Shown here piece after piece: positions 25,472 through 45,437 of a DNA stretch of 64,000 bases. The stretch is from Streptomyces sp. NBC_01314 (GTDB lineage: Bacteria > Actinomycetota > Actinomycetes > Streptomycetales > Streptomycetaceae). The DNA is taken from NCBI RefSeq assembly GCF_041435215.1, contig NZ_CP108394.1, forward strand, positions 124,001-188,000, in the 5' to 3' direction. The position numbers and the translations under genes are program-made. Every line of letters starts with the position of its first letter. Position 1 is the stretch's first letter. Under the pieces are notes generated by a model. The model was not told the origin of the DNA and did not search any database. It saw nothing but the letters and a program-made list of their open reading frames with translations.

Positions 25472-28234
25472 GCGGTCACGCTACGCCAAGGGCCGTCCGG
25501 CGGAAACGCCGACGACAAGCCATGTCGCCTGGAGACTTTAGGCCACGCGTCACCGACTTCGTAGTCGGGGGGCCTTGACCCAAGTCCGGATAATTAAAGG
25601 GCTTGCAGAGCATTAACCCGTAGCTTCCCGCTGGCCGACTCGTTGGCGTGGTATGGGCGCATCGGAGGGGCAACGGGCGGCGCTGGCAGCCAAGTTCGAG
25701 GCGATCTTTCCGCATCTCGACGAGCGGCAGCGGCGTCTGCTGATAGGAGCGGAAGCCCGGTCGATCGGCCATGGCGGGATCAGGCTGGTCGCCCGGGCTG
25801 CCGGGGTGCGGGAGGCCACGGTGTCGCTGGGTGCGGATGAACTGGAATCCGGCGAGGCCCCGTTGGGGCGGGTGCGCCGGGTGGGCGGAGGCCGCAAGCG
25901 GACGGTCGATCTGGACCTGGGACTTCGTCCGGCGCTGCTGGCCCTGGTCGAGCCGGATGTGCGGGGTGATCCGATGTCGCCGTTGCGGTGGACGACGAAG
26001 TCCACCCGTCATCTGGCCGCCGAACTCACCCGCCAGGGTCACCGGATATCCGCCGACACCGTCGCCGACGTGCTGCGCGAGGAAGGCTTCAGCCTCCAGG
26101 GGAACGCCAAGACCATCGAAGGCCGGCAGCACCCCGACCGGGACGGCCAGTTCCGCTACATCCGTCGAATCCATCCGCCGCTGGTGGAAGGGCCGCGGCA
26201 AGGAGGACTACCCGCAGGCCGGACGACTGCTGATCACCGCTGATGCGGGAGGTTCCAACGGATACCGGACCCGCGCCTGGAAGGCCGAACTCGCCGCCCT
26301 GGCCCTGGAGACGGGCCTGAACATCACCGTCTGTCACTTTCCTCCCGGCACTTCGAAGTGGAACCGAATCGAGCACCGGCTGTTCTCCCACATCACCATG
26401 AACTGGCGCGGCAGGCCCCTGACCAGCCACGAGGTCATCATGCAGTCCATCGCCGCGACCACCACCCGCACCGGCCTGAGAGTCCACGCGGAACTCGACA
26501 CCACCGCCTATGAGACGGGGATCCGCATCGGTGACGGGCAGATGGAAGCCCTGCCCCTGACCCGCCACGACTTCCACGGCGACTGGAACTACTCCCTGGT
26601 GCGCCACGAGGCGCCACTTGATACCGGGTAGGGGTGGAAGACCCCTACCGCCGGCCTGTCGCAGCAGGCTGGTGAAGCTGAGGGCAGCCGATGCGTGGAG
26701 ATGTACGCGGAGGTGGGAGCAGCCCTGACAACGACGGGACGCGCCGGTACTTCCAGACGACGCGGGTCCGGCAAGCAAGACGAGACGCCGTACGAGAGGA
26801 ACCAGTGTCTGACGCCCCGTAAGAGTTCCACCGGCTCCAATCTGGAAGATGCGGGCCGGGTGCAGCGCACGCCACCTCCGGGTGGCGACTCCGAAGCCGA
26901 CTTCAGGGTGTCGGTGGGGAGGCCACGTTGAAAGCCTGCGGCGTAGGCGTGGCGATGCTGTCGGGGTAGAGCTGGGCGGCTCGCTCGTCGACCGGTTGGT
27001 GGTGAACGTGGGAAGCGTCCTGGTGTCGCCCTTCCCGTCTGGCAGCCAGCCAGACGGAGGGCAAGGCCCGTCGTCGGTTGACGACTCCAGGACGTGGCGG
27101 AGGCCTCGTAGTAGTCCGAGCGTGTTAATGGCGCGCACATGGCGAAGGGGGCCAGCAAGTCAGCAGTCGAGGAACTGGAAGACCGGGAGGTCATCGGTGA
27201 ATACCGACGCACTGGAGCACGCCACGTATGAGGCGGAGCTCCGGGTACTGGAGATCCATGCCAAGCTGCACCGTTGGGCCCGTGATGATCCTCATCGCAG
27301 GTTCGATGACCTCTTCAACCTCTGTGCCGATCCCGCGTTCTTGCTGGTCGCGTGGGATCGGGTGCGGGGTAACAAGGGTGCCAAGACTGCCGGGGTGGAC
27401 GGCCGCACAGCGGCGTCCATTGCGGAGCGGACGGGTGTTGAGGAGTTCCTCGACGCACTACGAGGCTCGATCAAGGATCGTAGTTTCCGTCCGCGGCCGG
27501 TGCGGGAGCGGATGATTCCCAAGACAGGCGGCAAGCTGCGCCGCCTGGGGATCGCGACGATCGCCGACCGGGTGGTGCAGGCGTCCTTGAAGCTGGTGCT
27601 GGAGCCGATTTTCGAGGCGGATTTCCTCCCGTGCTCCTACGGGTTCCGTCCGAACCACCGGGCTCACGACGCGGTGGCCGAGGTCCGCCACTTCACGTCC
27701 CACGGGTATGAGTGGATCGTGGAGGGTGACATCAAAGTCTGCTTCGACGAGATTTCGCATCCGCCCCTGCTGGACCAGGTGCGGCTTCGGATCGGGGACA
27801 ACCGCGTTCTTGACCTGGTGAAGGCGTTCCTCAAGGCGGGCATCCTCGGTGAGGATCGCGTGCTGCGAGAAACCAGCGCCGGAACCCCGCAGGGTTCGAT
27901 CTTGTCGCCGTTGCTCAGCAACGTGGCCCTCTCCGTCCTGGACGAGTACGTAGCCCAGGGACCGGGAGGACCCGGAAGCAGCAAGCTGGGGCGGGAACAG
28001 CGTCGCCGTCAAGGTCTTCCCAACTACCGTATTTCCAGGTATGCGGACGACTGGTGCCTGATGGTCCACGGCACCGAAGGCGATGCCGAAGCCCTGCGCG
28101 AGGAGATCGCAGGGGTCTTGTCCACGATGGGCCTGCGCCTGTCCCCGGAGAAGACCCTGATCACCCACATCGATGAGGGACTGGACTTCCTCGGGTGGCA
28201 CATCCAGCGCCACCCGAGGAACCAGCCGGTACTA

Positions 28235-29404
28235 CTCAGGCTGAACTCGCAGCGTCGTCTTGGGTGGTGACGGCTCATGATCCTCGCGCTATTGCTGGAT
28301 CATGAGGTATGCGGCAGCGGGCGGGTACACGCCCGAGGAACAGGCCCGTCGGGAACGGTTGCGGCTGGAGGTCGCCGAGCGGTTCGCGGCGGGTGAGTCG
28401 AGTGCGCGGATCGCGCGGGAGTTGCGGGTCACGAAGCGCTCGGTGGAGCGCTGGCGGGCGGCGTGGAAGCAGGGTGGAGCGGCGGCGCTGTACTCGGCGG
28501 GACCCGTGGCGCGGGAGCGGCTGAGCGAGCGGCAGTGGGAGAAGGTGGCTGCTCTGCTGGACGCCGGGCCCGGCGTGTGCGGCTTCGAGGACGATCAGCG
28601 CTGGACGCTGGCGCGGGTCGCCGACCTGATCGGCCGGACCTGCCATGTCAACTACACCCTGACCGGGGTGAGCAAGCTGCTTGACCGGCACGGTTACTCC
28701 TGGCAGGTCCCGGTGCGCCGCTCGGCGGCACGCGACGAGGAGGAGATCACACGCTGGCGGGAGGAGACCTGGCCCGAGGTGGAACCACCGCCGGCGAGCT
28801 CGGCGCCTACATCTGCTTCGCCGACGAGTCGGGGCAGGGGCTGAGCCCGCCGCGAGGCCGGACCTGGGCCAGGCGCGGGGCTCGCCCGCAGGTCACAGTG
28901 CACGTACGCAAGCGCGGGCGGGTCAACGCGCTCGGTGCGGCCTGCTACCGCCCCGGCGGCCACCGGCCGCGCTTCGCCTACCGGTTACACACCTGGCACG
29001 GCCGCAAGAACGAGAGCAAGAGCTTCACCCTGGACGAGTACCGCGCCTTCCTGACTGCGCTCCATCATCAACTGCACACCCCCGTCGTGCTGGTGTGGGA
29101 CAACGTCTCCACGCACAAGACGCCGGAGTTCACCGCGTGGGCAGCGCGGCAGAAGTGGCTTCGGGTGTTCCACCTCCCCAGATACGCACCCGAGCTGAAC
29201 GCCGTCGAGTGGATCTGGTCCTGGCTCAAACGAGGCATCGTCAACTTCCTGCTCGCCGGTATCGACGACCTCGAAGCGCTCGTCCGCAGTCGACTCAAGC
29301 AGATCCAGTACCGGCCCGACGCGATCACCGGCTGCCTCGCCGACACCGGACTGATCACGAAGCCGCCATGATCCATCACAGCGACGCTACGGGTTCAACC
29401 TGAG
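28235..29404 (+). mobile_element. IS630-family element inserted in the intron 1 maturase
   Basis: Terminal inverted repeats CTCAGGCTGAACTCG (28235) and the complement of CTCAGGTTGAACCCG (ending 29404) are flanked by TA on both sides (28233-28234 and 29405-29406), the TA target duplication of the family. Confidence 0.85.
28302..29371 (+). CDS. IS630-family transposase in two overlapping frames
   Basis: Frame A (28302-28844) carries the helix-turn-helix half: ARELRVTKRSVERWRAAWKQ and YTLTGVSKLLDRHGYSWQVP. Frame B (readable from ~28790 to 29371) carries the catalytic half: GAYICFADESGQGLSPPRGR, VVLVWDNVSTHKTPEF and RYAPELNAVEWIWSWLKRG, with the DDE residues intact. IS630 elements often use programmed frameshifting between such frames, so this may be active; a simple mutation is the alternative. 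Confidence 0.85.
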
Positions 29405-29639
29405 TACGTCTACACCTACTCCTCACGCAAAGCCCTCGCGGCTGTGATGGGCAAGGTCAAAACGGCGTGCCGGAAGATGGCCACGAACCAGCCGCTCGAC
29501 ACCCTGCTCATCCAGCTCAACCGGATGCTGCCGGGCTGGTGCGCCTACTTCCGACCCGGCGTGTCCAGCGCGACATTCCAATACCTGAGTGAACCGCCCC
29601 GTTTCGAATGGAGACTCGATTTCATGAAAGGATCGAGTC

Positions 29640-29966
29640 ATGGCACGACCTTCCCGTTACCCGCTTGAGCTCCGCCGCCGTGCGGTGCGCATGGTCGCCG
29701 AGGTGCGCGACGACTACCCCAACGAGACGGCCGCTCTGCAGGCGGTCACGGACAAGCTCGGCATCGGCTCCCGGGAGACGCTGCGGAACTGGCTGAAGCA
29801 GCACGAGATCGATGCGGGGGTGCGTCCGGGGGCGACAACGGAGGAATCTGCCCAGCTCAGAGCGTTGAAGAAGGAGAACGCCGAGCTGAAGCGGGCGAAC
29901 GAAATCCTGAAGGCGGCGGCGAGTTTCTTCGCGGCCGAGCTCGACCGGCCACACACACGCTCGTAG
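29640..29966 (+). CDS. IS3-family OrfA (helix-turn-helix, leucine zipper)
   Basis: 108 residues. RPSRYPLELRRRAVRMVAEV and IGSRETLRNWLKQHEIDAGV give the DNA-binding helix-turn-helix. LRALKKENAELKRANEILKA is the leucine-zipper region. It overlaps OrfB, which is in the -1 frame, so the OrfAB fusion transposase is expected from frameshifting near the C-terminus. Confidence 0.93.
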   Translation: MARPSRYPLELRRRAVRMVAEVRDDYPNETAALQAVTDKLGIGSRETLRNWLKQHEIDAGVRPGATTEESAQLRALKKENAELKRANEILKAAASFFAAELDRPHTRS

Positions 29967-30892
29967 CGTTCATCGACGAGCACCGGGACCGCTTCGGCGG
30001 CGTCGAGCCGATCTGCAGAACCCTCACCGGGCACGACTGCAAGATCACCCCTTCTACCTACTACGCCCAGAAGAAACGCCTGGCCGTCCCGTCCACCCGT
30101 TTCGTGCGGGACGCCGAACTCAGGGAACTGATCCGCCAGGTCCACACCACCAACTACCGCGTCTACGGGGCAAGGAAGATCTGGCGGGAGCTGAACCGGC
30201 AGGGACATGCAGTGGCCCGCTGCACCGTCGAACGGCTGATGCGCGAGATGGGCATCAGCGGCGCCGTCCGCGGCAAGAGGGTCATCACCACGATCCCGGA
30301 CCAGCAGGCCGATCGGGCACCGGACCGAGTGGACCGTGACTTCGTCGCCGCCGCACCGAACCGCTGCTGGGTCGCGGATTTCACGCACGTGGCGACCTGG
30401 GCCGGCGTCGTCTACGTCGCCTTCGTCGTGGACACCTTCTCCCGCCGGATCGTCGGCTGGTCCGCCGCGACGTCGAAGGAGACCCAGCTGGTCCTGGACG
30501 CTCTGGAGATGGCACTGTGGCAACGCAACCGCGATGAACGCCCCCATGTTCGGGGCGAGTTGATACATCACAGCGACGCGGGCAGCCAGTACACCAGTTT
30601 CAAGCTGGCCGAACACCTGGATGCGGCCGGCATCGCCGCCTCGATCGGCTCTGTCGGCGACGCATACGACAACGCCCTGATGGAGAGCACGATCGGCCTG
30701 TTCAAAACCGAGTTGATCAAGCCTCAACGGCCCTGGAAGACCCTCTCCGAGGTCGAGTTGGCCACCGCCGAGTGGATCGACTGGTACTGCCACCGGCGCC
30801 TGCACGGTGAGATAGGCCACGTGCCACCCGTCGAGTACGAGACCAACTACTACACGGAACTCACAAAACCCCAGGTCACAACCACAATCTGA
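29942..30892 (+). CDS. IS3-family OrfB (DDE transposase)
   Basis: Frame open from before the OrfA stop with no start codon at its head (first ATG-like start at 30104), consistent with production by frameshift. HTH_21 region VYGARKIWRELNRQGHAVAR. The rve core has DDE residues in WVADFTHVATW, IHHSDAGSQYTS and ALMESTIGLFKTEL. Full length. Confidence 0.92.
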   Translation, partial: RPATHTLVAFIDEHRDRFGGVEPICRTLTGHDCKITPSTYYAQKKRLAVPSTRFVRDAELRELIRQVHTTNYRVYGARKIWRELNRQGHAVARCTVERLMREMGISGAVRGKRVITTIPDQQADRAPDRVDRDFVAAAPNRCWVADFTHVATWAGVVYVAFVVDTFSRRIVGWSAATSKETQLVLDALEMALWQRNRDERPHVRGELIHHSDAGSQYTSFKLAEHLDAAGIAASIGSVGDAYDNALMESTIGLFKTELIKPQRPWKTLSEVELATAEWIDWYCHRRLHGEIGHVPPVEYETNYYTELTKPQVTTTI

Positions 30893-31795
30893 GATCTCTA
30901 CCGAACCCGGGGCGGTTCAGAGCTCGTACACATGGAGCCAGGTCATGAAATGGCTGCGCCGCAAACACCGCTGGATCACCTGGAAGGACCTCCGCCGCCG
31001 CTATTGCGGGGGAGGTTGGCGGCCAGTTGGAGAGGAACGGACGCTGTTCGACCCCGGAAAGGTGCGCACCACGCGCTACCGCTACCGGGGTGCGGCCATC
31101 CCTTCCCCCTGGCCGACCACGGCATGAGGACGATCATCGACAGCAAAGCGGGACTTGTGGAGCGCCCGGTGCCATGAGAGTGGCACGCCGGGTGCGGGAA
31201 GCGGCCCGAAGAAACGGCTCGATCGAAAGACGAGACCGCGCTTCGGGCCGACTTCACCGCCCCGAGGCATACACCCAGGTCAATGACGCCCCGGACCCCT
31301 TCGACCAGCCGAGCCCCGACCTCTCCTGGCTCTGCCACCCGGCACTGACCGGGCTGCCGCCGCAGGAGTGGGACACCCTCATCACCACGCTGACCATCCT
31401 CCACGAGGCTCAGCGCGAGACGCACCTGGACAAACGATGCGGCCACCGGCCACGCGCCAAGGGCGACGGCAACACCGGACGCCGCCCGATCCTCACCCTC
31501 GCCGACCGCCTCCTGGCCGCCGTCCTCCATTACCGGCACGGCCTGCCCCAGATCGCTATCGCCGCCCTGTTCAATGTCCGGCCCGAGACAGTCAACCGGC
31601 GCCTGAGGGACATCCGGGAACTGCTGGCAACCGCAGGCCACGACCTCCACCCCGCCGAACGCCAACTCGCCACCTTGAACGACCTGTTCAGCCTGGCACG
31701 CGAGGCAAGCATCATCACCACGCTAGAGATCAAGACTGCGAGTTAATGCTCTGCAAGCCCTAACGGATTCGTGCTGGTGGCAAGGGGGGTTATCG

Positions 31796-32498: not shown

Positions 32499-32600
32499 TT
32501 ACGGCCCCCTGAGCGCGTCGGTGACCAGCGAGGTCCGCATATGGCCGGCGATCGACCAGCCCGCCAGGCGTCTCGAGAACAGGTCCAACACCGTTGCCAG
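32499..32600 (-). pseudogene. IS3-family OrfB fragment (downstream half)
   Basis: The minus strand reads LATVLDLFSRRLAGWSIAGH then MRTSLVTDALRGP-stop, the rve core of an IS3 OrfB. It starts at a CTG that is also the target duplication of the ISAzo13 copy 2 end at 32601. The matching upstream half is at 39357-39620. Confidence 0.8.
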
Positions 32601-32681
32601 GGACGCGCAGAGGAATAAGCCGTTCCATTGGACTGCCGATTCGTTGGTGTCATATGGGCATACCAGAGGGCACCCGTGAGG
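32601..32681 (+). mobile_element. ISAzo13-family element copy 2, detached 5' end
   Basis: Starts with terminal repeat GGACGCGCAGAG and encodes ATG GGC ATA CCA GAG GGC ACC CGT (MGIPEGTR), then meets the IS6 end. It aligns with the 5' end of copy 1 (MGASEGQRAALAAK). The rest of the gene continues at 43850 on the minus strand. The last eight bases CCGTGAGG (32674-32681) are the IS6 target duplication. Confidence 0.9.
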
Positions 32682-33541
32682 GGCGCTGTCACGTTGGCTG
32701 ATGACGTGGGATGATCTCCGGGTTGATCATGCCGGAGGGGCGGTTGTGAAGAGCAGGTCGCCGTCGTACAAAGGGCACCGGTACCCGGTCGAGATCATCT
32801 CCCACTGCGTACGGCTGTACCACCGCTTCCCGCTCAGCTTCCGCGAAGTCGAAGAGCTCATGCTCGAGCGCGGTGTCGTCGTGTCCTACGAGACCGTCCG
32901 CCGCTGGTGTCTGAAGTTCGCGCAGACCTACGCCGGCGCACTGCGCCGTCGGCAGCCCCGGCCCGGCGACAAGTGGCATCTCGACGAGGTCTTCATCAAG
33001 ATCAATGGCGAACGTCGGTACCTGTGGCGGGCCGTCGACCAGGACGGGACGGTGCTTGACATCCTCGTGCAGGACCGCCGCGACAAGGCCGCGGCCAGGC
33101 GCTTCTTCCGCCGCCTGCTCAAGAAGACGGGTGCGGTGCCCCGGGTGATCGTCACTGACAAGCTCCGCTCCTACGGTGCGGCCCACCGCGAGGTCATGCC
33201 CTCCGTCGAACACCGGCAGTCGAGGTACCTGAACAACCGCGCCGAGAACAGCCACCAGCCCACCAGACAGCGCGAACACGCGATGAAAGGCTTCCGGAGC
33301 ACCGGCGGGGCCCAGCGGTTCCTCTCCGCGTTCAGCGGCATCTCACCCCACTTCCGCCCCCGCCGCCATCTGATGACCGCTCCCGACCACCGGGCCGAGA
33401 TGGCCATCCGCTTCGCGATCTGGGACCAGGTAACCGGCGTCACCAGCCAGCCCGCTGCGGCCTGAACACATAACCGCAACCCGGCCCACCACACCCCGAC
33501 CCACCTTCACCCGACGACGCACTCGATAAGTTGACAGCGCC
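32682..33541 (+). mobile_element. IS6-family element, copy A (860 bases)
   Basis: Ends GGCGCTGTCA (32682) and TGACAGCGCC (33541) are inverted repeats. Same length as copy B at 43851-44710, which lies in inverted orientation and encodes an identical protein. The 8-base flank CCGTGAGG is on the left of copy A, and its partner is beside copy B rather than on the right of copy A. Confidence 0.95.
32746..33465 (+). CDS. IS6-family transposase, copy A
   Basis: 239 residues from GTG 32746 (GGAGGGG 5-11 bases upstream); the frame is open from ATG 32701. YKGHRYPVEIISHCVRLYHR, RPGDKWHLDEVFIKINGERR, RVIVTDKLRSYGAAHREVMP and NNRAENSHQPTRQRE hold the DDE triad and the C-terminal K/R seven residues after the Glu. 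Intact. The predicted protein is identical to that of copy B. Confidence 0.95.
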   Translation: MKSRSPSYKGHRYPVEIISHCVRLYHRFPLSFREVEELMLERGVVVSYETVRRWCLKFAQTYAGALRRRQPRPGDKWHLDEVFIKINGERRYLWRAVDQDGTVLDILVQDRRDKAAARRFFRRLLKKTGAVPRVIVTDKLRSYGAAHREVMPSVEHRQSRYLNNRAENSHQPTRQREHAMKGFRSTGGAQRFLSAFSGISPHFRPRRHLMTAPDHRAEMAIRFAIWDQVTGVTSQPAAA

Positions 33542-33890
33542 CCTTCGAGGCTTCGACACTTCGAAGTTCAGCCGGTGGCCGTTCGTCTATGCGGGCATCA
33601 CCCTGAAGCCGGAGAAACCCCTGGATCAGGTCGAACCCGTACACCATCTCCATGGACGCAACCGAGCCCTTCACGCACTGCCCGCCGCTCAGCCGTCAGG
33701 CCCCCACCCTCCGAATACCGCATAGCACCGGCATACCGCAGGGATCACTCATCGTCACCACCCGAAGCCAAACAGAAAAAGTCAGTAGTAGTGCTCTTTC
33801 CCGGGCTGCATGAGCCAGCTGATCGCACCGAGGACGAAACATGATTCCTGGACCGCTCGCGGACGCGGTCGTGGAGGGTCGAAGAACGCG
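33542..33890. other. Junction region right of IS6 copy A; unrecognised protein-like stretch
   Basis: The plus strand at 33546-33660 reads RGFDTSKFSRWPFVYAGITL then KPEKPLDQVEPVHHLHG, probably a fragment of a gene cut by the inversion endpoint. I cannot name the family. No intact gene. Confidence 0.35.
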
Positions 33891-35030
33891 TCAGCTGACC
33901 CGAAGACCGACCGCCAGCGTCAGTTCAAGGACCCGGTGTGGCGATGCGAGATCCGGAAACAGCTCCCGCAGCTGCGACATCCGGTACCGGACTGTCTGGG
34001 GATGGACGAACAACGCCGCCGCCACCTCGTCCCGTCTGCCCTGGTGCAGCAGCCACGCCCGCAACGTCTCCTCCAGTCGCCGTGCGGTTGCGACAGGCAA
34101 GGTCCGCAACGGTGCGAGGGCTCGGGCACGCAGGTCTGCGAACGCGTCCACGTCGGCGCTCAGCACCAGCTCTGGCAGGTGGTCCTCGGTGTCGCGAATA
34201 TCAGAGGAGAGGGAGCGCGCGCGTACGGCTCGTGCGTACGAGGCGGACGCACGAGTCCACGGCCGGGCCGGGCCGACCACGGCGGTGCGGTCGGTCAGCT
34301 GCCGCAAGAGATGTGATCGGTCGGCGTCGGGGACGAGCAGCACACCGGTGGCGTCCGGTAGATCGTCGAGGACGAGGGTGCTCGGGTCGAGCGCGCGGTA
34401 GGCAGGCCGGGCCTGGGCGGCGGGCAGCAGGACCGCGGTCAGCGAAACCGGAGGCTGCCACCCGGCCCGTTGAACAGAGGCCAGCAGCACGTCCGGGCTC
34501 GCACCGGCGAGGAGGTCGCGGGCCAGATGTTCCAGATGGCGCTCCTGGTCCCTGCCCCGGGCGGCCAGTTCGTCGGCGTGGCCCGCGGCGCTCGCGGCGG
34601 AGAGCTCATCGATGTAGGCGAAGGTCAGCTCCGCGAACTTGGCGACCTCCGCGGCGGGCAGACCTGCGGGTACGGCACCCGCCGCCAGGCACCGCCAGGC
34701 CACACGGGCCCCGACGCGGTAGGCGCTGAGCAGGGCGTCCATCGAACGCCCGTCGCGCACCTCGCCGCGGCCCAGCTCGTAGGCTGCGTCACCGGCGTCG
34801 CCGCCCGTGGCGTTCCCGCTCGCGAGGTCCAGATAGTGCCCCAGGGCGGTGCGGACAGCTCGGCGGATGGTGGCGCCCATGCGGCCCGAAAGAGCGTTGG
34901 CGTAGGAAGGGACCTCGTCGATGATCGCCTCGACGACCTCGTCGGCCGTGCTCCTCAGCGCGGCCCGAAGTACGGTGACCGTCGTCTCATCCAAGGCCAG
35001 TTCACCGGCCCTCCGCATTGCATAGCTCAC
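33891..35030 (-). CDS. PucR-family transcriptional regulator
   Basis: 379 residues; ATG 35030. The N-terminal RsbRD/GGDEF-like sensory half (VEAIIDEVPSYANALSGRMG, MDALLSAYRVGARVAWRCLA) is followed by the PucR C-terminal helix-turn-helix: LEETLRAWLLHQGRRDEVAA, ALFVHPQTVRYRMSQLRELF. The same layout is common beside desaturase/reductase pairs in actinobacteria. Divergent from the reductase gene with only 86 bases between starts, so it most likely regulates that pair. Confidence 0.9.
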   Translation of the reverse strand: MSYAMRRAGELALDETTVTVLRAALRSTADEVVEAIIDEVPSYANALSGRMGATIRRAVRTALGHYLDLASGNATGGDAGDAAYELGRGEVRDGRSMDALLSAYRVGARVAWRCLAAGAVPAGLPAAEVAKFAELTFAYIDELSAASAAGHADELAARGRDQERHLEHLARDLLAGASPDVLLASVQRAGWQPPVSLTAVLLPAAQARPAYRALDPSTLVLDDLPDATGVLLVPDADRSHLLRQLTDRTAVVGPARPWTRASASYARAVRARSLSSDIRDTEDHLPELVLSADVDAFADLRARALAPLRTLPVATARRLEETLRAWLLHQGRRDEVAAALFVHPQTVRYRMSQLRELFPDLASPHRVLELTLAVGLRVS

Positions 35031-35116
35031 TTTTTGTTCCCTGCGAACAATTCAGCCGACCAGATTTACGTCCTGCGGTCAGGACTTTACCCCCCGAGGC
35101 GCAGCAAGCTGGAGTC

Positions 35117-36172
35117 ATGACGAGTACAGCCCTCCGCAGCAGGGCGTGGAAACTGCTGGAGATGGTCACGACGCCGCTGCTGCCGTCGGACTACCTCGAC
35201 CTGGTCAGCCCGCTGCGTGCGGGCGCTGACCTACGTGGGCGCATCGAGGCCGTGCACCCCGAGACGGGTGACGCCGCGACCATCGTGATCAGGCCGGGAC
35301 GGGGCTGGCGCGGCCACACAGCCGGTCAGTACGTGCGGATCGGGGTCGACGTCGACGGGGTGCGCCTGTGGCGTGCCTACTCCCTCACCTCGCCGACACA
35401 CCGCCAGGACGGCCGCGTCACGATCACCGTGAAGGCGATCCCGGACGGCAAGGTCAGCAACCACCTGGTCCGCAGGGCCAAACCAGGCACGCTGATCCAG
35501 CTCGACCAGCCGACCGGTGACTTCGTGCTGCCGCAGGCCAAGCCCGCCAAGGTGCTCTACCTGACGGCCGGCAGCGGCATCACGCCCGTGATGGGCATGC
35601 TGCGCGACACCGAGTTCGACGACGTCGTCATGGTCCACTGCGCGCCACAGCCGCACGACGTGATCTTCCGCAACGAACTGCACGACCTGGTCGCGGACAA
35701 GAAGCTGCGGCTCACCGAGGTGCACACCGACACAGACGGCATGCTCGACATCGCCCGTCTCGACGAACTCGTGCCCGACTGGGCCGATCGCGAGACCTGG
35801 GCTTGCGGGCCCGCGGGCCTGCTCGACGCCGCCGAAGAGCACTGGAGCGAGCACGGCGTCCAAGAGCGCCTGCACACCGAACGCTTCCGCCCCAGCATCG
35901 TCGTCGCCGGCGACGGCGGCGAGGTCACGTTCAGCGCCACCGGCAAGACCGTCGACGCGGACGGCGCCACGCCGTTGCTGGACATCGGCGAGGAGGCCGG
36001 CGTGCTCATGCCCTCCGGGTGCCGCATGGGCATCTGCTTCGGCTGCGTCTCGCCGCTCAAGGCGGGCGCCGTCCGCGATCTGCGCACCGGCGAGATCACC
36101 GAGGCCGAGCCGGGCGTCCTCATCCAGACCTGTGTGTCCGCCGCGGCGGGCCCCTGCGACATCGAACGGTAG
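35117..36172 (+). CDS. Ferredoxin-NADP-type reductase fused to 2Fe-2S ferredoxin
   Basis: 351 residues; ATG 35117 with GGAG upstream. FAD-binding segment LWRAYSLTSPTHRQDGRVTI (RxYS motif), NAD-binding AGSGITPVMGML and WACGPAGLLDAA. The C-terminal plant-type 2Fe-2S domain has CRMGICFGC and a later CVSAA cysteine. Same organisation as mycobacterial Rv3230c, the electron donor of the stearoyl-CoA desaturase DesA3. It sits seven bases before the desaturase gene start, so it is the expected redox partner. Confidence 0.92.
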   Translation: MTSTALRSRAWKLLEMVTTPLLPSDYLDLVSPLRAGADLRGRIEAVHPETGDAATIVIRPGRGWRGHTAGQYVRIGVDVDGVRLWRAYSLTSPTHRQDGRVTITVKAIPDGKVSNHLVRRAKPGTLIQLDQPTGDFVLPQAKPAKVLYLTAGSGITPVMGMLRDTEFDDVVMVHCAPQPHDVIFRNELHDLVADKKLRLTEVHTDTDGMLDIARLDELVPDWADRETWACGPAGLLDAAEEHWSEHGVQERLHTERFRPSIVVAGDGGEVTFSATGKTVDADGATPLLDIGEEAGVLMPSGCRMGICFGCVSPLKAGAVRDLRTGEITEAEPGVLIQTCVSAAAGPCDIER

Positions 36173-36179
36173 GAGCACC

Positions 36180-37298
36180 GTGACCGCCACCGACCCCACC
36201 GCCCACCTGAGCGCGAAACAGATCGAGGAGCTCGGCCGCGAGCTGGACGCGATCCGCGACGAGGTGATCGCCGGCCGCGGCGAGAAAGACGCCGCCTACA
36301 TCCGTAAGGTCATCTCGGCGCAGCGCAAGCTCGAGCTGGTCAGCAGGGGCGTGCTGCTGTTCTCGATCTTCCCGCCCGCGTGGCTGATCGGCACCGCCGG
36401 GCTGTCCGTGGCGAAGATCATGGACAACATGGAGATCGGCCACAACATCCTGCACGGCCAGTGGGACTGGATGCGCGACCCGAAGATCCACTCCACCACC
36501 TGGGAATGGGATCACGCCTCGCCGTCCGAGCAGTGGAAGCACTCGCACAACGAGCTGCACCACACGTACACCAATGTGATCGGCAAGGACAACGACCTCG
36601 GCTACGGCATCATGCGCGTCGACGAGGACCAGAGGTGGCACCCCTTCCACCTCGGCCAGCCGCTGTGGAACTTCCTCAACGCCTGCTTCTTCGAATACGG
36701 CATCGCCGCGTACGACCTGGAGCTCGCCAAGAACCTCCAGAAGCGCCGCCGCAAGAACCCCGAGTTCCGCGCGCGGGCCAAGGCCGTGGGCCGCAAGATC
36801 CGCAAGCAGGTGCTCAAGGACTACGTCATCCACCCGCTGCTGTCGGGCCCGTCGTTCTTCACCACGCTCGCCGCCACGTTCACCGCGAACCTGGTCCGCA
36901 ACATCTGGACCCACTCGGTGATCATGTGCGGGCACTTCCCCGAGGGCGTGCAGGTCTTCGAGCGCCGGTCGATCAAGGGCGAGACGCGCGGCCAGTGGTA
37001 CCTGCGCCAGATGATGGGCTCGGCGAACATCAGCGGCAGCAAGGCCATGCACTTCATGACCGGCAACCTCTCGCACCAGATCGAGCACCACCTGTTCCCG
37101 GACCTGCCGAGCAACCGGTACGCCGAGGTCGCGGTGAAGGTGCGCGCGCTGTTCGAGAAGTACGAGCTGGAGTACGTCACCGGGCCGCTGCCCAAGCAGG
37201 TGTTCTCCGCGTGGCACAAGGTCTTCCGGCTCTCGCTGCCGAACAAGAAGCCCGCGGTCAAAACGCCGGACCGCGAGCAGGAGCTCGCCACGGCCTGA
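36180..37298 (+). CDS. Membrane fatty acid desaturase (DesA3/acyl-CoA type)
   Basis: 372 residues from GTG 36180 (GGAG at 36172-36175). The three histidine boxes of di-iron desaturases are GHNILHGQ, HNELHHTY and HQIEHHLFPD. Hydrophobic segments flank them (LLFSIFPPAWLIGTAGL and the region around LSGPSFFTTLAATF). It introduces a double bond in acyl chains at the membrane, with electrons from the preceding reductase (inference from pairing). Intact although surrounded by mobile DNA and within an inverted segment. Confidence 0.92.
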   Translation: MTATDPTAHLSAKQIEELGRELDAIRDEVIAGRGEKDAAYIRKVISAQRKLELVSRGVLLFSIFPPAWLIGTAGLSVAKIMDNMEIGHNILHGQWDWMRDPKIHSTTWEWDHASPSEQWKHSHNELHHTYTNVIGKDNDLGYGIMRVDEDQRWHPFHLGQPLWNFLNACFFEYGIAAYDLELAKNLQKRRRKNPEFRARAKAVGRKIRKQVLKDYVIHPLLSGPSFFTTLAATFTANLVRNIWTHSVIMCGHFPEGVQVFERRSIKGETRGQWYLRQMMGSANISGSKAMHFMTGNLSHQIEHHLFPDLPSNRYAEVAVKVRALFEKYELEYVTGPLPKQVFSAWHKVFRLSLPNKKPAVKTPDREQELATA

Positions 37299-37566
37299 TT
37301 CCCGGTATTGATTCAGATCTTTCGGCCGTACCGGCGGCACCGCCGGTTTCGGTGAGATCCGTTGGAAGCGCCCCGAGTATGTCGCCGATCTGGCCGACGA
37401 GGCATGTGAGACCGCCTATGCCTTGGTCCGCGCGTACAACATTCCCGGTCGCCGCTCGGCGACCACCTCAACGGTGAGTCCCACAGGACGTGACCAGGCG
37501 TACTCAAGTCGTTCTCAGATCCTCCGGATCCAGTGTCTCGTGTGTCCAGGATCAAGGGGCAAGGCC
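37299..37566. other. Remnant region before the IS4 element
   Basis: The plus strand at ~37320-37470 reads GFGEIRWKRPEYVADLADEA then ETAYALVRAYNIPGRRS, an unrecognised coding-like fragment. From ~37490 the sequence appears to be the 5' neighbour of the IS3 OrfB fragment that continues beyond the IS4 (RGSRGKAGSARVTAEL across the target site). Confidence 0.4.
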
Positions 37567-39356
37567 CAAGGCCGGGTAGTTAACGTTTTCGCAGGTCACG
37601 CAAGGGGTGTTGGGGTCCATGCCGTGGCGGCGTAGAGGCCGGGGCCGAGTTTGTGGATGAGGCCGGTCTCGGCCCATCTGGAGAGCTGCCGATACATGCT
37701 CTCCATGGTGATGTCGCCGAAGTGAGAAGCGATGTCGCGGGGGCGCCAGAGGCGGGTGGGGTCCTCCTCGAGCAGGCCAAGGATCCGGTGACGGCGGCGG
37801 TCGGCGGGGGCGGTGTTCCGGTCGTCGCGGGAGATGGCGGGGAGCTGAGGGTGCGGTTCGTGAGGTTCGAGGACGCTGATGTCGAGGCCGGTGATGGTGC
37901 GGCTGGTGTCGGGCCTGCCGTCGTCATGGCGGGTGCTGTAACGGGACATCGGTGACTTGACCTTGCGGGTGCTGACCCGCTGCCGTCGGGGCGGCAGGAG
38001 ACGGGCCAGGATCCGGTGCCCGATCAGTCCTACGCGACCGACATCGGCGGGGTCGGTGATGACGGCGGCGGCCTGGACGACCTGGTCGCGGGCGGTCTGG
38101 AGGGCGATGGTGAAACAGCAGCGGTCCGGATCGGTGCCAGGCAGCGATTCGGCAGCCTCGACCATCATGGTGCGTAGGGCCTGGTAGAGGGTGAGCAGGG
38201 CCCACATCTCCTGTTCGACGCCGGCCCGGTCGCCCGAGCGCAGGACACGCCCGTTCATGAGCGTGTGGCGGAGCGCGTAGTACGCAGATTCGTGTACCCA
38301 CCGCTGGTGGTAGAGGCCCACCAGCACGGCCGCCGGGTAGCGGCCGGCGTCGGTCAAGGTGGTGACCAGCCGGTAGGAGCCGGTGAAGACGGTGCCGTCC
38401 GCGCAGGTCACCGTGATGTTCGCGTCGATCACACGTACCTTCTCGGCGGCGATCACCGACAGGTATGAGCCGTCGGCGAGACGGGTGAGAACGGGGGTAC
38501 GCCGGTTGCTGCGGAGTCGACCCAGGAACTGGGCGCGGGTCGCGGTGACGGAGGCGAGGAAGCCGTTGCCGTCGAAGCCCTTGTCCCACAGGACGAGCAT
38601 GTCCGGCCGCAGCAGATGCAGCAGGCGCGAGGCATAGCTGGTCTCGCCCTCGGTGGTGGGCCCGAACACCGCGCCGAGCAAGGCTCGTGTGCCGGTCTCG
38701 ACCAGCGTCATCAACTCCAGTGTGGGATAGCCGTGATGGGAGGTTTGCCCCAGCCAGGCCCTGTTTCGCCAGGAGTCGGGGACCTTCTGGGAACTGCAGC
38801 CGTCGAATGACACAGTCCGGTACGGCCCGAACCGCACACCGGGTGTCGTCGGCCGGGCCAAAGGCCCGCGAGAACCTCGAATAACGCGCGCACCGGCGCG
38901 CTGCCCAGTCGTCGGCGCAGATCACGCAGGGCCTTCGGCGTCGGGGAGGCCACCGGCACGTCGGCCAGCCCGGCCGTCAGCTTGTCCCAGACCAGCCGGT
39001 AGCCGACTTCAGGGAACAGACACATCGCGAGCAGGAAGTAGATCCCGACCCGCGAAGGAAGATCACGCAGTCGTCTCTGCACCGAGCGGGTCTCCGCCAG
39101 GACCGCGTCGACCAGCTCGAACGGCACGACGGCCGTCAGCTCGCCCAGATGCCCGGGCGCGAACCGGCCCGCGGCCACTGTGACCGTACGGGTGATGGCC
39201 ATCACCGGGGCCGGCAGGACATGATGAAACGGCAACGGAGCTCCTCAAGTACAAGCTGTCTTGGACGACTGCCTGTACCAACGAACTCCGTTGTTCTGCG
39301 TCGGAAATCCTTCAACTGGCTTGCGTGACCTGCGAAAACGTTAACTACCCGGCCTT
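37567..39356 (-). mobile_element. IS4-family element with long perfect terminal repeats
   Basis: Exact inverted repeats of ~38 bases (CAAGGCCGGGTAGTTAACG... at 37567-37604, complement at 39319-39356), flanked by an 11-base direct repeat GGGGCAAGGCC at 37556-37566 and 39357-39367. It interrupts an IS3 OrfB fragment. Confidence 0.93.
37596..39235 (-). pseudogene. IS4-family transposase with one-base frameshift
   Basis: N-terminal part (39235 to ~38865): APGHLGELTAVVPFELVDAV, RLRDLPSRVGIYFLLAMCLF and PKALRDLRRRLGSAPVRALF. C-terminal part in the next frame: LARPTTPGVRFGPYRTVSFD, VLWDKGFDGNGFLASV, YHQRWVHESAYYALRHTLMN and a winged-helix tail RWAETGLIHKLGPGLY. The frame change lies in GGGCCTTTGG, where one extra C would join the halves (LAGPLARPTTPG). 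Loss of one base is likely; programmed shifting is the alternative. Confidence 0.88.
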
Positions 39357-39620
39357 GGGGCAAGGCCGGGTCCGCGCGTCACCGCCGAGCTGAAGGAGGC
39401 CGGGACGCCGGTCAATCACAAGCGGGTCGAGCGCGTCATGCGCAAGTTCCACATCGTCGGGCTGCACTTGCGCAAGAAGGTCCGCACCACCATTCCCGAG
39501 CCGTCGGCGACACCGGTGCCGGACCTGCTCCAGCGGGACTTTGCTGCCCAGGAGCCGAACACCAAGTACGTGGACGACATCACCTACCTCCCGATCGGCA
39601 ACGGCCAATTCCTTTATCTG
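39357..39620 (+). pseudogene. IS3-family OrfB fragment (upstream half)
   Basis: ARVTAELKEAGTPVNHKRVE, MRKFHIVGLHLRKKVRTTIP and NTKYVDDITYLPIGNGQFLY, then L at CTG 39618-39620, where the ISAzo13 end begins. The continuation (LATVLDLFSRR) is now at 32600-32499, 7 kb away, because of the inversion. Confidence 0.85.
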
Positions 39621-40781
39621 GGACGCGCAGAGAATCAACACGCTGCTTTGACCGCTGGGTTGCTTCGATTGCGGTGCTGCGCGACGAGTACGCGGAGGGC
39701 GGTGATGGACGTCGGCTGGACTTCGGCCGGCTCGAGTGGGCGACCGAGGAGAACGAGGAGCTCACGGGCTTGGCGGATGCGCTGGCCGATCGTGTCGCAT
39801 CGGACGTGGAAGTGCTCGGCAATCGCGGTCCTGGGCAGTCCGAGTCGATCCTGCAAGAAGGCGGCCAGGATCCGATCGACGAGGGTGAGCGTGGGAGGCC
39901 GGCCCGCGCCGGGTGCCTTCGTGCGCTCGCGCCCTCGACGTCGCCGCAGGCGCGCTTCGCGCTGGTCCTGGTTCAGGGCACCGAGCGCCCGTACCAGCGC
40001 GGCCCACTCAGCGGGTTCCAGTCCGGTGACCGCGGGGTGGCACAGCCAGGCGTGCTCGGGACTGGCCTGGTCGAACGGCGTTGCCGCAGGGGTGATGACC
40101 TGGGCGAATGCCTGCGGCAGCAGCGTGTAGTTCCAGGCCCCGTGCCAGTCGTGGCCCCGCAGCGGCAGCGCTTCCAACTGGGCGTCACTGACCCGCACGC
40201 CGACGGGGTATTCGCCTGTGTCCAGTTCGGCCAGGACTTTCAGTCCGGTGCGCGTGGTGGTCGCAGCGATGGTGTTCACCACTACCTCGTGGCTGGTCAG
40301 AGGTCTGCCGCGCCAGTTCATGGTGATGTGCGCGAAGAGACGGTGCTCGATCCGGTTCCACTTCGAAGTTCCGGGAGGAAAGTGACAGACCGTGATCTCC
40401 AGCCCGGTCTCGACTGCCAGTTCCGCGAGTCGGGCCTTCCATGTGCGGCTGCGGTAGCCGTTGGACCCACCCGCATCGGCCGTGATCAGGAGGCGTTGCG
40501 AGTGCGGATAGGCGTCCCGGCCGACGGCTTCCCACCAACGGCGGATCGAGGCAACTGCGAACGCGGCGGTGTTGTGGTCACAGCCCACACTGACCCAGCC
40601 GGTGTTCGCGGCCAGGTCGTAGATACCGTAGGGGATGACCTGGCCCGCGCCGCCGTACTCCAGGAAGTCGTGTGAGCGGACCTTGATCGGCTCCCCCTTG
40701 CGCTGCCAATCCCGGCCGGCCATGTCGTACCGGCCAACCTTGTCGGGTAGGTGCGGCGCATTGCTGCGCCGCACCCCCCTC

Positions 40782-40817
40782 AGAACCGTGCGTGCCCGTC
40801 GTCCGAGCACACGGCTC
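40782..40817 (-). ncRNA. Domain V of group II intron 2
   Basis: 36-base hairpin with the catalytic AGC at its 5' strand, a two-base CG bulge and arms GCCGTG/CACGGT. This is the most conserved element of group II ribozymes. Confidence 0.88.
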
Positions 40818-42627
40818 AAGCAGGCCCCGGAGGACTGCTGGCAGGTTGCAGTGCTGTCCGACTGCCGGTGCTGGCACCGCGCCAGCGATGGCAGTGGGTG
40901 TGAATCAGGCGGAGGTAGGCGGCGCTGTCCGGTGCACTGCGGCCCGGATCGGCGGTGATCGCGTTCTTGCGGACCGCCTGTCGGGTCACCTTGAGCCACT
41001 GCTCCCATTCCGATGGGCTCTGCGGCTCGCGGTCGGCGTGCAGGAGGAACCCGTTGCAGAGCGGACAGCGGCCGTGCTGCTTCTGCAGCAGTCGCAGCCC
41101 GGTCACGCTCAGCGGGGGTTTCCGCTTGCTCCGTCGTGCAGCCCAGTACTCGCTCAGAGCCGGGTCGTCGACCGACGCCCGACCCGGAACCATCTGGTGC
41201 CGGACAATCTTGGTCCAGGCGAACTTGGTGAGATAGGCCCCGGACTCCCGGTCACCGAACACCCACCGGTCCTGCCTGGACCGGTTGAACCGACCGAAAT
41301 ATCGGGACGCCACCCAGTGCTTCGACTTCTTCGGGTGGCTGTGCTTGGCCCACTTGTAGGTGAGCTTCCACATGTGGAAGTCCAAGGAGGCGAACGCCTC
41401 GCTGGACACCACACCCCGGTAGTAGGCGGCCCAGCCCCGGATGATCGGGTTGAGTTTGGCGATCACCGCTGCGGCGTTGACCCCTCGCAGGTTCACCACC
41501 TCGGCGGAGAGCCGGTCCCGCATCCGTTGCAGGGCAGCCCTGCTCGGCTTGATCAGCAGCGTGCCGCGATAGCGACGGACGTTGAACCCCAGGAAGTCGT
41601 AGCCGTCATCGAGGTGCGCTGTGCGCGTCTTGTCCTCGTTGAAGACCAGCCCCCCAGGCGCCAGCCACGCGGCGAGCCGAGCCTGGACCTGTTCGGCCTC
41701 GTCACGGCTGTGACAGAGAGCCACCAGATCATCGGCGTACCTGATCAAAATCGGCGAGCCCGCCTCGGTCTCCCCGGCATGAGCACCGGTCTGCCGATAG
41801 CGGACCCCAGCCGCCTCCTCCATCCCGTGAAGGGCCACGTTCATCAAGAGCGGTGAAACGATCCCGCCTTGCGGGGTCCCCTCCACCGTCGGGGCGAATC
41901 TCCCCTGGTCGACCACCCCGGCCTTGAGCCACTGCTCGATCAGGCCCCGGGCGGGGAACTGTCCGAGCAGGCCCAGAAGCCGGTCATGGTCGATCCGGTC
42001 GAATGCCGCCGTCAGGTCGGCGTCCAGCACCCACTGCCGCTTGGGGGCCTTGCCCTTCGCGGCCTGGAAGATGGCCTGGATCGCGTCGTGACAACCACGG
42101 CCGGGCCGAAATCCATAGGATCGCGGCTCGAACCGTGCCTCCCACTCGGGTTCGAGTGCACCAAGGACCGCAGCTTGAAGACAGCGGTCCAAGATCACGG
42201 GAATTCCTAGTGGCCTTTGACGTCCGCCTGCCTTCGGTATGAACACTCTCCTGACGGGGCGGGCCTTCCACGGAGCGGCCTTGCGCTGCATCCAGTCGGC
42301 CAGTTCGGCCTTGCCCCGGGGCAGCAGCACGACCATCCCGTCGATGCCCGCCGTCTTGCGGCCAGCGTTGACCTCCGTGACCCGCCGCACGCTCATGAGC
42401 GTGTTGGAGCGGGAGCGGAGCATCAACTTCTGCAGATTGCGGACCCGTTTGAGGTCCCCTGCCTGCGACGCCGTGAAGATCCTCTGCCTCAGCCGCCGTA
42501 CTTCCCCCTCCGCCGCCTGCCAGTCGATCGACAGCCAGCCGGTGGGGTCGTCCTCCGGTCCGTTCACCGCAGCCCGGTGGACCACTGCGGAGTCCGCCGT
42601 GGGTACCGGTGTCGCCATGGTGTCCAA
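40816..42627 (-). CDS. Group II intron 2 reverse transcriptase/maturase with HNH domain
   Basis: 603 residues. RT fingers/palm: VNAGRKTAGIDGMVVLLPRG, VRRVFIPKAGGRQRPLGIPV, TPQGGIVSPLLMNVALHGME, and the active site LIRYADDLVALC (YADD at 297-300). The maturase X domain spans ~residues 350-450 (IIRGWAAYYRGVVSSEAFAS, LTYKWAKHSHP). A C-terminal zinc/HNH endonuclease-like segment has CPLCNGFLLHADREP and HTHCHRWRG. Complete, in frame, with its stop inside domain V. It would promote splicing and retrohoming of its intron. Confidence 0.94.
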   Translation of the reverse strand: MDTMATPVPTADSAVVHRAAVNGPEDDPTGWLSIDWQAAEGEVRRLRQRIFTASQAGDLKRVRNLQKLMLRSRSNTLMSVRRVTEVNAGRKTAGIDGMVVLLPRGKAELADWMQRKAAPWKARPVRRVFIPKAGGRQRPLGIPVILDRCLQAAVLGALEPEWEARFEPRSYGFRPGRGCHDAIQAIFQAAKGKAPKRQWVLDADLTAAFDRIDHDRLLGLLGQFPARGLIEQWLKAGVVDQGRFAPTVEGTPQGGIVSPLLMNVALHGMEEAAGVRYRQTGAHAGETEAGSPILIRYADDLVALCHSRDEAEQVQARLAAWLAPGGLVFNEDKTRTAHLDDGYDFLGFNVRRYRGTLLIKPSRAALQRMRDRLSAEVVNLRGVNAAAVIAKLNPIIRGWAAYYRGVVSSEAFASLDFHMWKLTYKWAKHSHPKKSKHWVASRYFGRFNRSRQDRWVFGDRESGAYLTKFAWTKIVRHQMVPGRASVDDPALSEYWAARRSKRKPPLSVTGLRLLQKQHGRCPLCNGFLLHADREPQSPSEWEQWLKVTRQAVRKNAITADPGRSAPDSAAYLRLIHTHCHRWRGASTGSRTALQPASSPPGPA

Positions 42628-43850
42628 CTTGTCCTTCGGTTAAAGCGTTGATGGTCATCGGGTCCTCACAGGCCCACCTGATCCACGTCAGCACCCTTTC
42701 GGGTCCGGACAGTGCCCGTATCCGGCCAGTTGTGCGGGACGGCCAGCGGAGGCGCTGGCCACCAGTCCCGGTTTCCTGTCGCCTTTCGGCTGCCGGCCTT
42801 GGCTTCTTGGATCATCCTGTGCCCGCTGGGGAGTTGGGCCTTCCTTACGGTCGGCTGACCGGAGACGCTGTCTCCGGACCCCATCGGGGTTACCACGTTC
42901 CACGCGAGCGAGATGCGACCGGGTTGGGTGCCCCCTTTACTCCGGGACGGCGATGCTCTCCCGGCTGGCAAAGAATCCCCAACCGGCGCCTGCCGCTTCT
43001 CAGCGGCCAGTCCTGCACCCCGCTGGAACATCCCATCTGCGGAGCCAAAGATCACGAAGCATCATCAGGGGTTCAGTCGCCTTCACCCGTCCGGTCTTCC
43101 CCTTGCCTGTGGCCTACGGATGGAACGCAGGCCCTTGGGCTTTTCCCCCGAGCTCCGCACCGAGCCGTTACCGGCAACGCACGTCGGGGTGGGGACTGGC
43201 CTTGAGCACTGGCCAGGAACTACGCTGCCGACGTCACTCGTCGGGCCTCTGACCAGCGCATTCACTCATCTCGTGCAGCATCGTGTCGCACCTCTTTCTT
43301 CTTCGCGTCCACGCTGATCACCGGGTCCCCGCTCGTCTGCTGGGCCTTGACCTGGTCGTTGATGTAGCGGAACTGCGCATCTCGGTCCGGGTGGTCCGCA
43401 CCTTCCAGGACTCGGGAATTGCCCTGCAGACTGAAGCCCTCCTCGCGCAGCAGATTGCCCACCGTGTCCGCACCCACGCGGTGGCCCTGCCGGGTCAGCT
43501 CCGCAGCCAGGTGCCGGGTCGACTTGGTAGTCCACCGGAGAGGCGTCATCGGATCGCCCCGCAGGTCGGGCTCGACCAGGGCGAGCAGGGCTGGACGCAT
43601 ACCCGGATCAATGTCAGCGGCACGCTTGCGTCCTCCTCCAGGCCGTCGAACGCGCCCCAGCAGGGGTATGCCACGGTCCAGTTCGGCCGCTCCCCGCGAG
43701 ACCGTTCCCTCGCGCACACCTGCGGCTTGCGCAACCGCCCGGACCCCGCCATGCCCAAGCGAGCGGGCCTCGGCGCCAAGCACCAACCGCCGTTGGCGCT
43801 CGTCCAAGTGCGGAAACACCGCCTTGAACTTTGCCGCCAGCACCTCACGG

Positions 43851-44710
43851 GGCGCTGTCAACTTATCGAGTGCGTCGTCGGGTGAAGGTGGGTCGGGGTG
43901 TGGTGGGCCGGGTTGCGGTTATGTGTTCAGGCCGCAGCGGGCTGGCTGGTGACGCCGGTTACCTGGTCCCAGATCGCGAAGCGGATGGCCATCTCGGCCC
44001 GGTGGTCGGGAGCGGTCATCAGATGGCGGCGGGGGCGGAAGTGGGGTGAGATGCCGCTGAACGCGGAGAGGAACCGCTGGGCCCCGCCGGTGCTCCGGAA
44101 GCCTTTCATCGCGTGTTCGCGCTGTCTGGTGGGCTGGTGGCTGTTCTCGGCGCGGTTGTTCAGGTACCTCGACTGCCGGTGTTCGACGGAGGGCATGACC
44201 TCGCGGTGGGCCGCACCGTAGGAGCGGAGCTTGTCAGTGACGATCACCCGGGGCACCGCACCCGTCTTCTTGAGCAGGCGGCGGAAGAAGCGCCTGGCCG
44301 CGGCCTTGTCGCGGCGGTCCTGCACGAGGATGTCAAGCACCGTCCCGTCCTGGTCGACGGCCCGCCACAGGTACCGACGTTCGCCATTGATCTTGATGAA
44401 GACCTCGTCGAGATGCCACTTGTCGCCGGGCCGGGGCTGCCGACGGCGCAGTGCGCCGGCGTAGGTCTGCGCGAACTTCAGACACCAGCGGCGGACGGTC
44501 TCGTAGGACACGACGACACCGCGCTCGAGCATGAGCTCTTCGACTTCGCGGAAGCTGAGCGGGAAGCGGTGGTACAGCCGTACGCAGTGGGAGATGATCT
44601 CGACCGGGTACCGGTGCCCTTTGTACGACGGCGACCTGCTCTTCACAACCGCCCCTCCGGCATGATCAACCCGGAGATCATCCCACGTCATCAGCCAACG
44701 TGACAGCGCC
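43851..44710 (-). mobile_element. IS6-family element, copy B (inverted relative to copy A)
   Basis: Ends GGCGCTGTCA at 43851 and TGACAGCGCC at 44710. Same 860-base length and same encoded protein as copy A. Its left flank carries the complement of CCGTGAGG, matching the flank left of copy A; its right flank GGACGGCA has no partner. Confidence 0.95.
43927..44646 (-). CDS. IS6-family transposase, copy B
   Basis: Predicted protein identical to copy A (GTG start at 44646, open from 44691). DDE residues intact (HLDEVF, VTDKLRSY, RAENSHQ). Intact and presumably active; provides the homology for the inversion. Confidence 0.95.
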   Translation of the reverse strand: MKSRSPSYKGHRYPVEIISHCVRLYHRFPLSFREVEELMLERGVVVSYETVRRWCLKFAQTYAGALRRRQPRPGDKWHLDEVFIKINGERRYLWRAVDQDGTVLDILVQDRRDKAAARRFFRRLLKKTGAVPRVIVTDKLRSYGAAHREVMPSVEHRQSRYLNNRAENSHQPTRQREHAMKGFRSTGGAQRFLSAFSGISPHFRPRRHLMTAPDHRAEMAIRFAIWDQVTGVTSQPAAA

Positions 44711-45437
44711 GGACGGCAAGGTCGTCGTCGTCACCGGAGCCGCGCGCGGGCAGGGCGCGGCCGAGGTCGAGGCGCTGGCCCGGGCGGGGGCGGTGGTCGT
44801 CGCCACCGATGTGACCGAGGCTCCGGGCTGTCTGCGTCTGGACGTCACCGAGGCGGCGGAGTGGGCGGCGCTCGCGGAAGGGCTGCGACGCCAGTACGGA
44901 GAGGTCCACGGCCTGGTCAACAACGCCGGCATCACCTGGCGCGCGCGGCTCCACGAGGTCACGCCCGAGGACTTCGCCCGCGTCCACGCGGTCAACGTCA
45001 CCGGCCCGCTGTTGGGCATCCAGCACCTGGCGCCGTTGATGCCGCCGGGCTCGTCGATCGTCAACGTCGGCTCGGCCGCCGGGCTCACCGGGCACTACCC
45101 GGTCGCGTACACGGCCAGCAAGTGGGCGCTGCGCGGCCTGTCGAAGGCGGCCTGTGTCGAGCTGGGCCCGCGGGGCATCCGCGTGAACACCGTCCATCCC
45201 GGCTTCATCGAGACCGAGATGACCGCCTCCGCCGCGCCCGCCTTCCGCGAGGCGAACATCCGCGAGACGCCGCTGGCCCGCACCGGCACCGTCGACGAGA
45301 TCACCCCGCTGGTGGTCTTCCTCCTCTCCGACGACGCCTCCTTCATCACCGGCGTCGAGATCCCCGTCGACGGCGGCTTCACCGCACACGGCGGCGCCAA
45401 GTCCATCTCCGACGCCCTGCGGTCGGCTTCCGACTGA
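44700..45437 (+). CDS. Short-chain dehydrogenase whose start lies in the IS6 terminal repeat
   Basis: 245 residues as read from GTG 44700: GTG ACA GCG CC belongs to the IS6 end, and GG ACG GC... is chromosomal. Classical SDR: VVVTGAARGQG (cofactor), LVNNAGITW, NVGSAAGL (Ser) and YTASK (YxxxK), ending VDGGFTAHGG. The native first few codons were replaced by the IS end, and whether a ribosome site remains is unclear. It lies 34 bases before the CoA-transferase genes, suggesting oxidation of a 3-hydroxyacid followed by CoA transfer (for example ketone-body use); substrate unproven. Confidence 0.82.
   Translation: MTAPDGKVVVVTGAARGQGAAEVEALARAGAVVVATDVTEAPGCLRLDVTEAAEWAALAEGLRRQYGEVHGLVNNAGITWRARLHEVTPEDFARVHAVNVTGPLLGIQHLAPLMPPGSSIVNVGSAAGLTGHYPVAYTASKWALRGLSKAACVELGPRGIRVNTVHPGFIETEMTASAAPAFREANIRETPLARTGTVDEITPLVVFLLSDDASFITGVEIPVDGGFTAHGGAKSISDALRSASD

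Follow-up and report, generated by a model that had tools for sequence, protein, structure and literature searches.

Inversion of a 10.3-kb segment between two identical IS6 copies in Streptomyces, very probably by replicative transposition in trans

Two identical IS6 elements in opposite orientation delimit an inverted segment in the genome of Streptomyces sp. NBC_01314 (Table 1). The locus lies in the window, as we call the whole stretch of 64,000 nucleotides analysed, which covers bases 124001-188000 of an 11.33-Mb contig. It is very probably explained by a single intramolecular replicative transposition in trans, carried out by one IS6 after an earlier deletion in cis. The single trans event is favoured because it accounts in one step for the second copy, for the inversion and for a target duplication that is split and inverted.

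Table 1. Features of the inverted segment and its borders (window coordinates)
Feature	Position	Strand	Evidence or remark
IS3 OrfB fragment, downstream half	32511..32597	-	tblastn
ISAzo13 left tip (GGACGCGCAGAG), leader and first transposase codons	32601..32681	+	CCGTGAGG terminates the piece at 32674-32681
IS6-family element, copy A	32682..33541	+	intact 254-aa transposase; PF13610 DDE_Tnp_IS240, E 7.9e-40
Cut end of another IS; putative old flank of donor IS6	33542..33665		four relatives run on into a shared transposase-like frame
PucR-type regulator (-), reductase (+), desaturase (+), within inverted segment	33793..37364		
DDE_Tnp_1 transposase region, within inverted segment	37596..39235	-	PF01609 in 37596-38861; ORFs
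IS3 OrfB fragment, upstream half	39372..39620	+	tblastn
ISAzo13 right tip (39621-39632) and 3' part of transposase gene	39621..40741	-	PF07592 101-308
Group II intron, 2550 bp, with 603-aa RT/maturase ORF, within ISAzo13	40742..43291	-	RF00029, RF02012; PF00078, PF13655, PF08388
ISAzo13 transposase gene, 5' part, with the octamer's other copy at 43843-43850	43292..43850	-	PF07592 2-102
IS6-family element, copy B	43851..44710	-	every base as in copy A
SDR gene without native first 11 nt; putative other old flank of donor IS6	44711..45437	+	PF13561, PF00106; IS6-free L034-L037

Copy A and the reverse complement of copy B agree in 860 of 860 bases, in line with a sequence-only reading of this DNA which had described them as inverted, equal in length and coding for identical transposases. 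Both transposase frames are open and feature a DDE_Tnp_IS240 domain, scored at 136.7 bits (cut-off 27), as in DDE transposases of the IS240/IS6 type. The length of 860 bp and the ends GGCGCTGTCA / TGACAGCGCC fall within the norms given for the IS6/IS26 family in a review (PMC7986276): about 700–890 bp, short terminal inverted repeats, GG at the tips. The octamer CCGTGAGG is found outside copy A, at 32674-32681, and its complement on the inner side of copy B, at 43843-43850, where the same reading had located them. The 8-bp target duplication of IS6/IS26 elements is present, split between A and B and not arranged as a direct repeat. The remaining flanks (CCTTCGAG from 33542, GGACGGCA from 44711) are unlike each other; therefore neither copy has a target duplication of its own, as had been remarked for B and holds for A too. 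At either copy, one flank is old and the other belongs to the target.

The genome contains 11 IS6 matches, the closest after A and B being 83% identical. The best other copy listed among 295 genomes of the genus, with two candidates scored per genome, reaches 86%. The best 20 of 761 plasmid records matching the IS6 DNA are 82–83% identical, all from Streptomyces; 77 of the 80 transposase relatives kept as loci (the best 80 of 582) are from this genus. A third IS6 in the window (50484-51346), 83% identical, is free of direct duplications, and has 8-bp inverted repeats, GAGAACTC / GAGTTCTC, immediately outside its ends.

Turning 33542-43850 around on paper mends four seams at once. First, CCGTGAGG becomes a direct 8-bp repeat around a single IS6. 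Second, the ISAzo13 pieces located left of A and inward from B, which share one octamer, form one continuous frame: 15 of the 24 ISAzo13 loci fetched (L048-L071) align from residues 1–3 across the joint, gap-free in the stretch printed, the others starting later or missing the start region. The best relative among the 24, L048, is 66% identical over residues 1–547. Third, the ISAzo13 tips GGACGCGCAGAG at 32601 and 39621, which match over 12 bases and are co-oriented in the window, become opposed, and CAG/CTG becomes a 3-bp duplication. Assignment to the ISAzo13 family rests on these terminal inverted repeats and on PF07592, a profile covered by the two gene pieces from 2 to 102 and from 101 to 308. 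Fourth, the IS3 OrfB parts at 39372-39620 (+) and 32511-32597 (-), found by tblastn with OrfB from L034 as query, join into one match of 112 residues (62.5% identity, 0 gaps, 154 bits; 109 and 52 bits for the separate pieces). ISAzo13 is nested within this IS3 remnant. A common chance cause of the seams is not credible, because they are separate junctions of different ages (IS3 before ISAzo13 before IS6). The split ISAzo13 gene, and its restoration by the flip as one element interrupted by IS6 together with the rejoined IS3 gene, had been proposed from the sequence and are thereby confirmed.

Inverted repeats of 860 bp can mislead short-read assembly, and the flipped order might be the true arrangement, the segment having been misoriented between them. 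The region lies within an 11.3-Mb contig of a two-contig genome, which suggests that long reads were used, and a misoriented segment would still not explain why the IS6 at the SDR gene has no duplication of its own; an assembly artefact is accordingly very improbable.

The 2550-bp insert that splits ISAzo13 is, by its sequence features, a group II intron. It features domain V (RF00029, 51.7 bits against a cut-off of 40), GIIM and RVT_1 domains, and conserved ends; the end consensus of group II introns is GTGYG...AY. The other ISAzo13 copy of the window (25653-31698) is likewise fragmented. Its gene pieces (25653-26601 and 31261-31698) are separated by an RT ORF, a group II intron domain V (31160-31257) and other transposase-like ORFs. 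The intron, the nesting of ISAzo13 within IS3 and the missing start of the SDR gene had escaped the sequence-only reading. We infer that IS3 came first, then ISAzo13 within IS3, then the intron and IS6 within ISAzo13.

The old flanks of the donor IS6 suggest an earlier deletion. Four relatives of the 33542-33665 sequence, read among at least eight matches (L033, L038, L042, L043), have in common the sequence beyond it, starting from exactly the point where IS6 begins; the cut element is presumably IS256-like, a label assigned by eye. At the opposite side, the SDR gene right of copy B is truncated 11 nt past a presumed GTG, and has lost its start. Loci L034-L037, which have no IS6 there, retain the start of the SDR gene, and 8.8–9.0 kb of upstream DNA are common to them (92–95% identity). 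When 4.27 kb of this block were searched in the NBC_01314 genome, the best match was only 73% identical over about 0.7 kb. A deletion bounded by IS6, and probably made by it, would have taken the DNA ahead of the SDR gene. The donor IS6 would lack a duplication of its own because it already bordered this deletion. At 44700-44722, the end of copy B would provide an in-frame GTG to the SDR gene, four IS codons apparently replacing the four native first codons.

The seams, the identity of the copies, the split octamer, the absent duplications and the absent upstream block are read directly in the DNA; the one-step replicative route is what we infer from them. One IS6 would first have been located with the cut IS (33542-33665) on one side and the cut SDR gene (from 44711) on the other; the deletion in cis would already have removed whatever direct repeats the donor had, as well as the remainder of the adjacent IS and the DNA upstream of the SDR gene. 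Both IS6 ends would then have attacked, in trans, the octamer CCGTGAGG within an IS6-free ISAzo13 some 10 kb distant. Replication of the strand-transfer intermediate would have produced an identical, inverted second IS6 and, in the same step, inverted the intervening 10.3 kb and doubled the octamer, whose two copies, inverted to each other, adjoin one IS6 each. An inversion of this type would depend on the transposase rather than on RecA. The ancestor may thus have carried one IS6 and an ISAzo13 free of IS6, and the flipped arrangement with two copies may never have been real. According to the IS6 review, intramolecular replicative transposition in cis leads to deletion, in trans to inversion; after the latter the target is duplicated in inverted orientation, and each IS has one original and one target flank (PMC7986276). 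The footprint of A and B, identical inverted copies with an inverted target duplication and one original plus one target flank each, supports a trans reaction because it is the outcome described there.

The same final sequence would be obtained in two steps, by entry of IS6 into ISAzo13 with a normal 8-bp duplication, through a cointegrate with another replicon and its resolution, followed by homologous recombination with an identical IS6 at the SDR gene, which would flip the segment. A stretch of 860 identical bases is a fair substrate for recombination, and recombination of inversely oriented IS26 copies has been proposed for SGI1-K (PMC7056807). In one sequence the product of a single step and that of insertion plus recombination are indistinguishable, because their bases are identical; recombination between A and B, possibly before or after, would also leave the same outcome. 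The two-step route is nevertheless unlikely. It takes more steps, it requires an identical IS6 to have come from elsewhere, the genome having only A and B of that kind, and it needs an intermediate with a direct duplication, of which no instance was seen in 125 copies surveyed. The inversion, its endpoints and its reversal on paper, as given in the sequence-only reading, stand; the route implied there, an IS6 with its duplication and an independent copy B, then inversion, is the less likely one on the grounds of these extra steps and of the missing intermediate.

In the survey, direct 8-bp duplications, with up to one mismatch allowed, were found at none of 31 IS6 loci with both ends. These derive from 49 first-round loci (40 fetched, 9 from the NBC_01314 genome), 18 of which are without one or both ends. 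The 40 were taken from 44 non-own rows, leaving out a fragment from G252 and three duplicates that G165 has in its terminal repeats. The set was extended with loci from the 295-genome search, two linear plasmid records (30 of 40 rows became loci) and named genomes of transposase relatives (15 of the 80 loci without two ends) to 125 full-length copies of the clade, judged unique by their flanks. None of the 125 has a direct 8-bp duplication; the longest direct repeat at IS6 ends, seen in 4 of the 125, measures 4 bp. Insertion flanked by a duplication is therefore apparently not the usual product, and the trans event remains the preferred reading of the A/B pair. For IS26, cointegrates are reported to be the exclusive product; a single copy flanked by an 8-bp duplication would likely result from subsequent resolution, and the surprisingly low number of duplications on record may be due to adjacent deletions (PMC6807381).

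When IS6 ends were compared in 155 ordered pairs from the same genome, the octamer left of one copy matched that right of another once, in A/B; visible inversions are therefore rare in the sample. Three left/right matches emerged from all ordered pairs of the 125 copies: A/B, a pair in Streptomyces sp. Ag109_O5-1, and L155/L082, taken as chance as the records are unrelated. The Ag109_O5-1 copies (L228 and L233) are in direct orientation about 728 kb apart, differ at 3 positions and have the octamer CCGCCGAC on the inner side of both. Such a fusion-like pattern would be expected if a chromosomal IS6 had captured a circular replicon. In G140, two identical 861-bp copies (L100 and L101), separated by about 35 kb and directly oriented, agree in the right flank and differ in the left, as if an IS-bounded segment had been duplicated. 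In the 892-kb linear plasmid NZ_CP108874.1 (L140), IS6 positions are mirrored about the middle, a symmetry suggestive of a head-to-head palindrome or of an assembly artefact imitating one. Inverted-repeat flanks occur at some copies, and targeting of hairpins by IS6 was considered; permutation tests are too weak for such a claim. With n=30, p was 0.005 for flanks of 15 or 20 bp and 0.42 for flanks of 30 bp; with n=64 it was 0.028 (count) and 0.04 (mean), and with n=125 0.01 (count) and 0.075 (mean), a weak excess.

The PucR/reductase/desaturase cassette was carried along within the inverted segment, as had been stated. Among 295 genomes searched, NBC_01314 included, 121 others contain this block with 92–97% identity across 3.39 kb or more, at widely differing chromosome positions; it is either unusually conserved or often transferred, a point we leave as a side note. 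A mobile cassette had been suspected from the high identity and sharp ends, and was discarded as in several relatives, in a comparison of 11 loci, the similarity extends further on one side, by up to about 0.9 kb. In G252 the block lies about 364 kb from the SDR gene, and their relative orientation is the flipped one; in G127 the distance is about 83 kb and the orientation that of the window. Gene order and orientation in these relatives conflict, and do not polarise the event.

The process is known from IS26 in other bacteria; this instance is new and unusually complete. A search of open-access literature titles found none on inversion by IS6 in Streptomyces, although this does not prove that none exists. 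The history of the locus can be followed stepwise from the DNA alone, from IS3 to ISAzo13, to the intron and IS6, to the IS6-bounded deletion and then to the inversion, and a rule established for IS26 in clinical plasmids is extended to an environmental actinomycete. Taken together, case and survey suggest that IS6 elements remodel Streptomyces DNA via deletion and inversion rather than by simple hopping. More tentatively, and with the odds somewhat against it, essentially no resident copy of this Streptomyces clade might be a simple insertion, each being the scar of a deletion, an inversion or a replicon fusion; the proposal is based on the 125 copies free of direct duplications, the inversion pair found here and the fusion-like pair of Ag109_O5-1. 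If true, the flanks of IS6 would be a readable record of how the arms of linear chromosomes are rebuilt.

As in adjacent deletion by IS6 in cis, described in the IS6 review (PMC7986276), the flanks of the donor are unrelated to each other, and sequence known from relatives breaks off precisely at the IS6 end. What differs is that the deleted partner molecule is gone, so that the reaction is only a probable one, and that other losses may have preceded or followed the arrival of IS6. Recombination of homologous IS copies in inverted orientation also yields a segment bounded by identical inverted ISs, but alone makes neither a second copy nor a split target duplication. The closest parallel is the trans inversion by IS26 reported for SGI1-LK1 (PMC7056807), where, as here, a new identical IS in opposite orientation accompanies an inverted segment (19.5 kb there, 10.3 kb here), and the 8-bp target, duplicated in inverted orientation, lies within another IS. 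The IS26 target in SGI1-LK1, CCGTGGGG, is located in IS6100 and is one base apart from CCGTGAGG (PMC7056807); the near-match is perhaps a coincidence, perhaps a shared preference. In contrast to SGI1-LK1, a diverged IS6 acted here in what is probably a Streptomyces chromosome, the donor had apparently been stripped by deletion beforehand, and the target ISAzo13 also bears a group II intron and is nested in an IS3 remnant.
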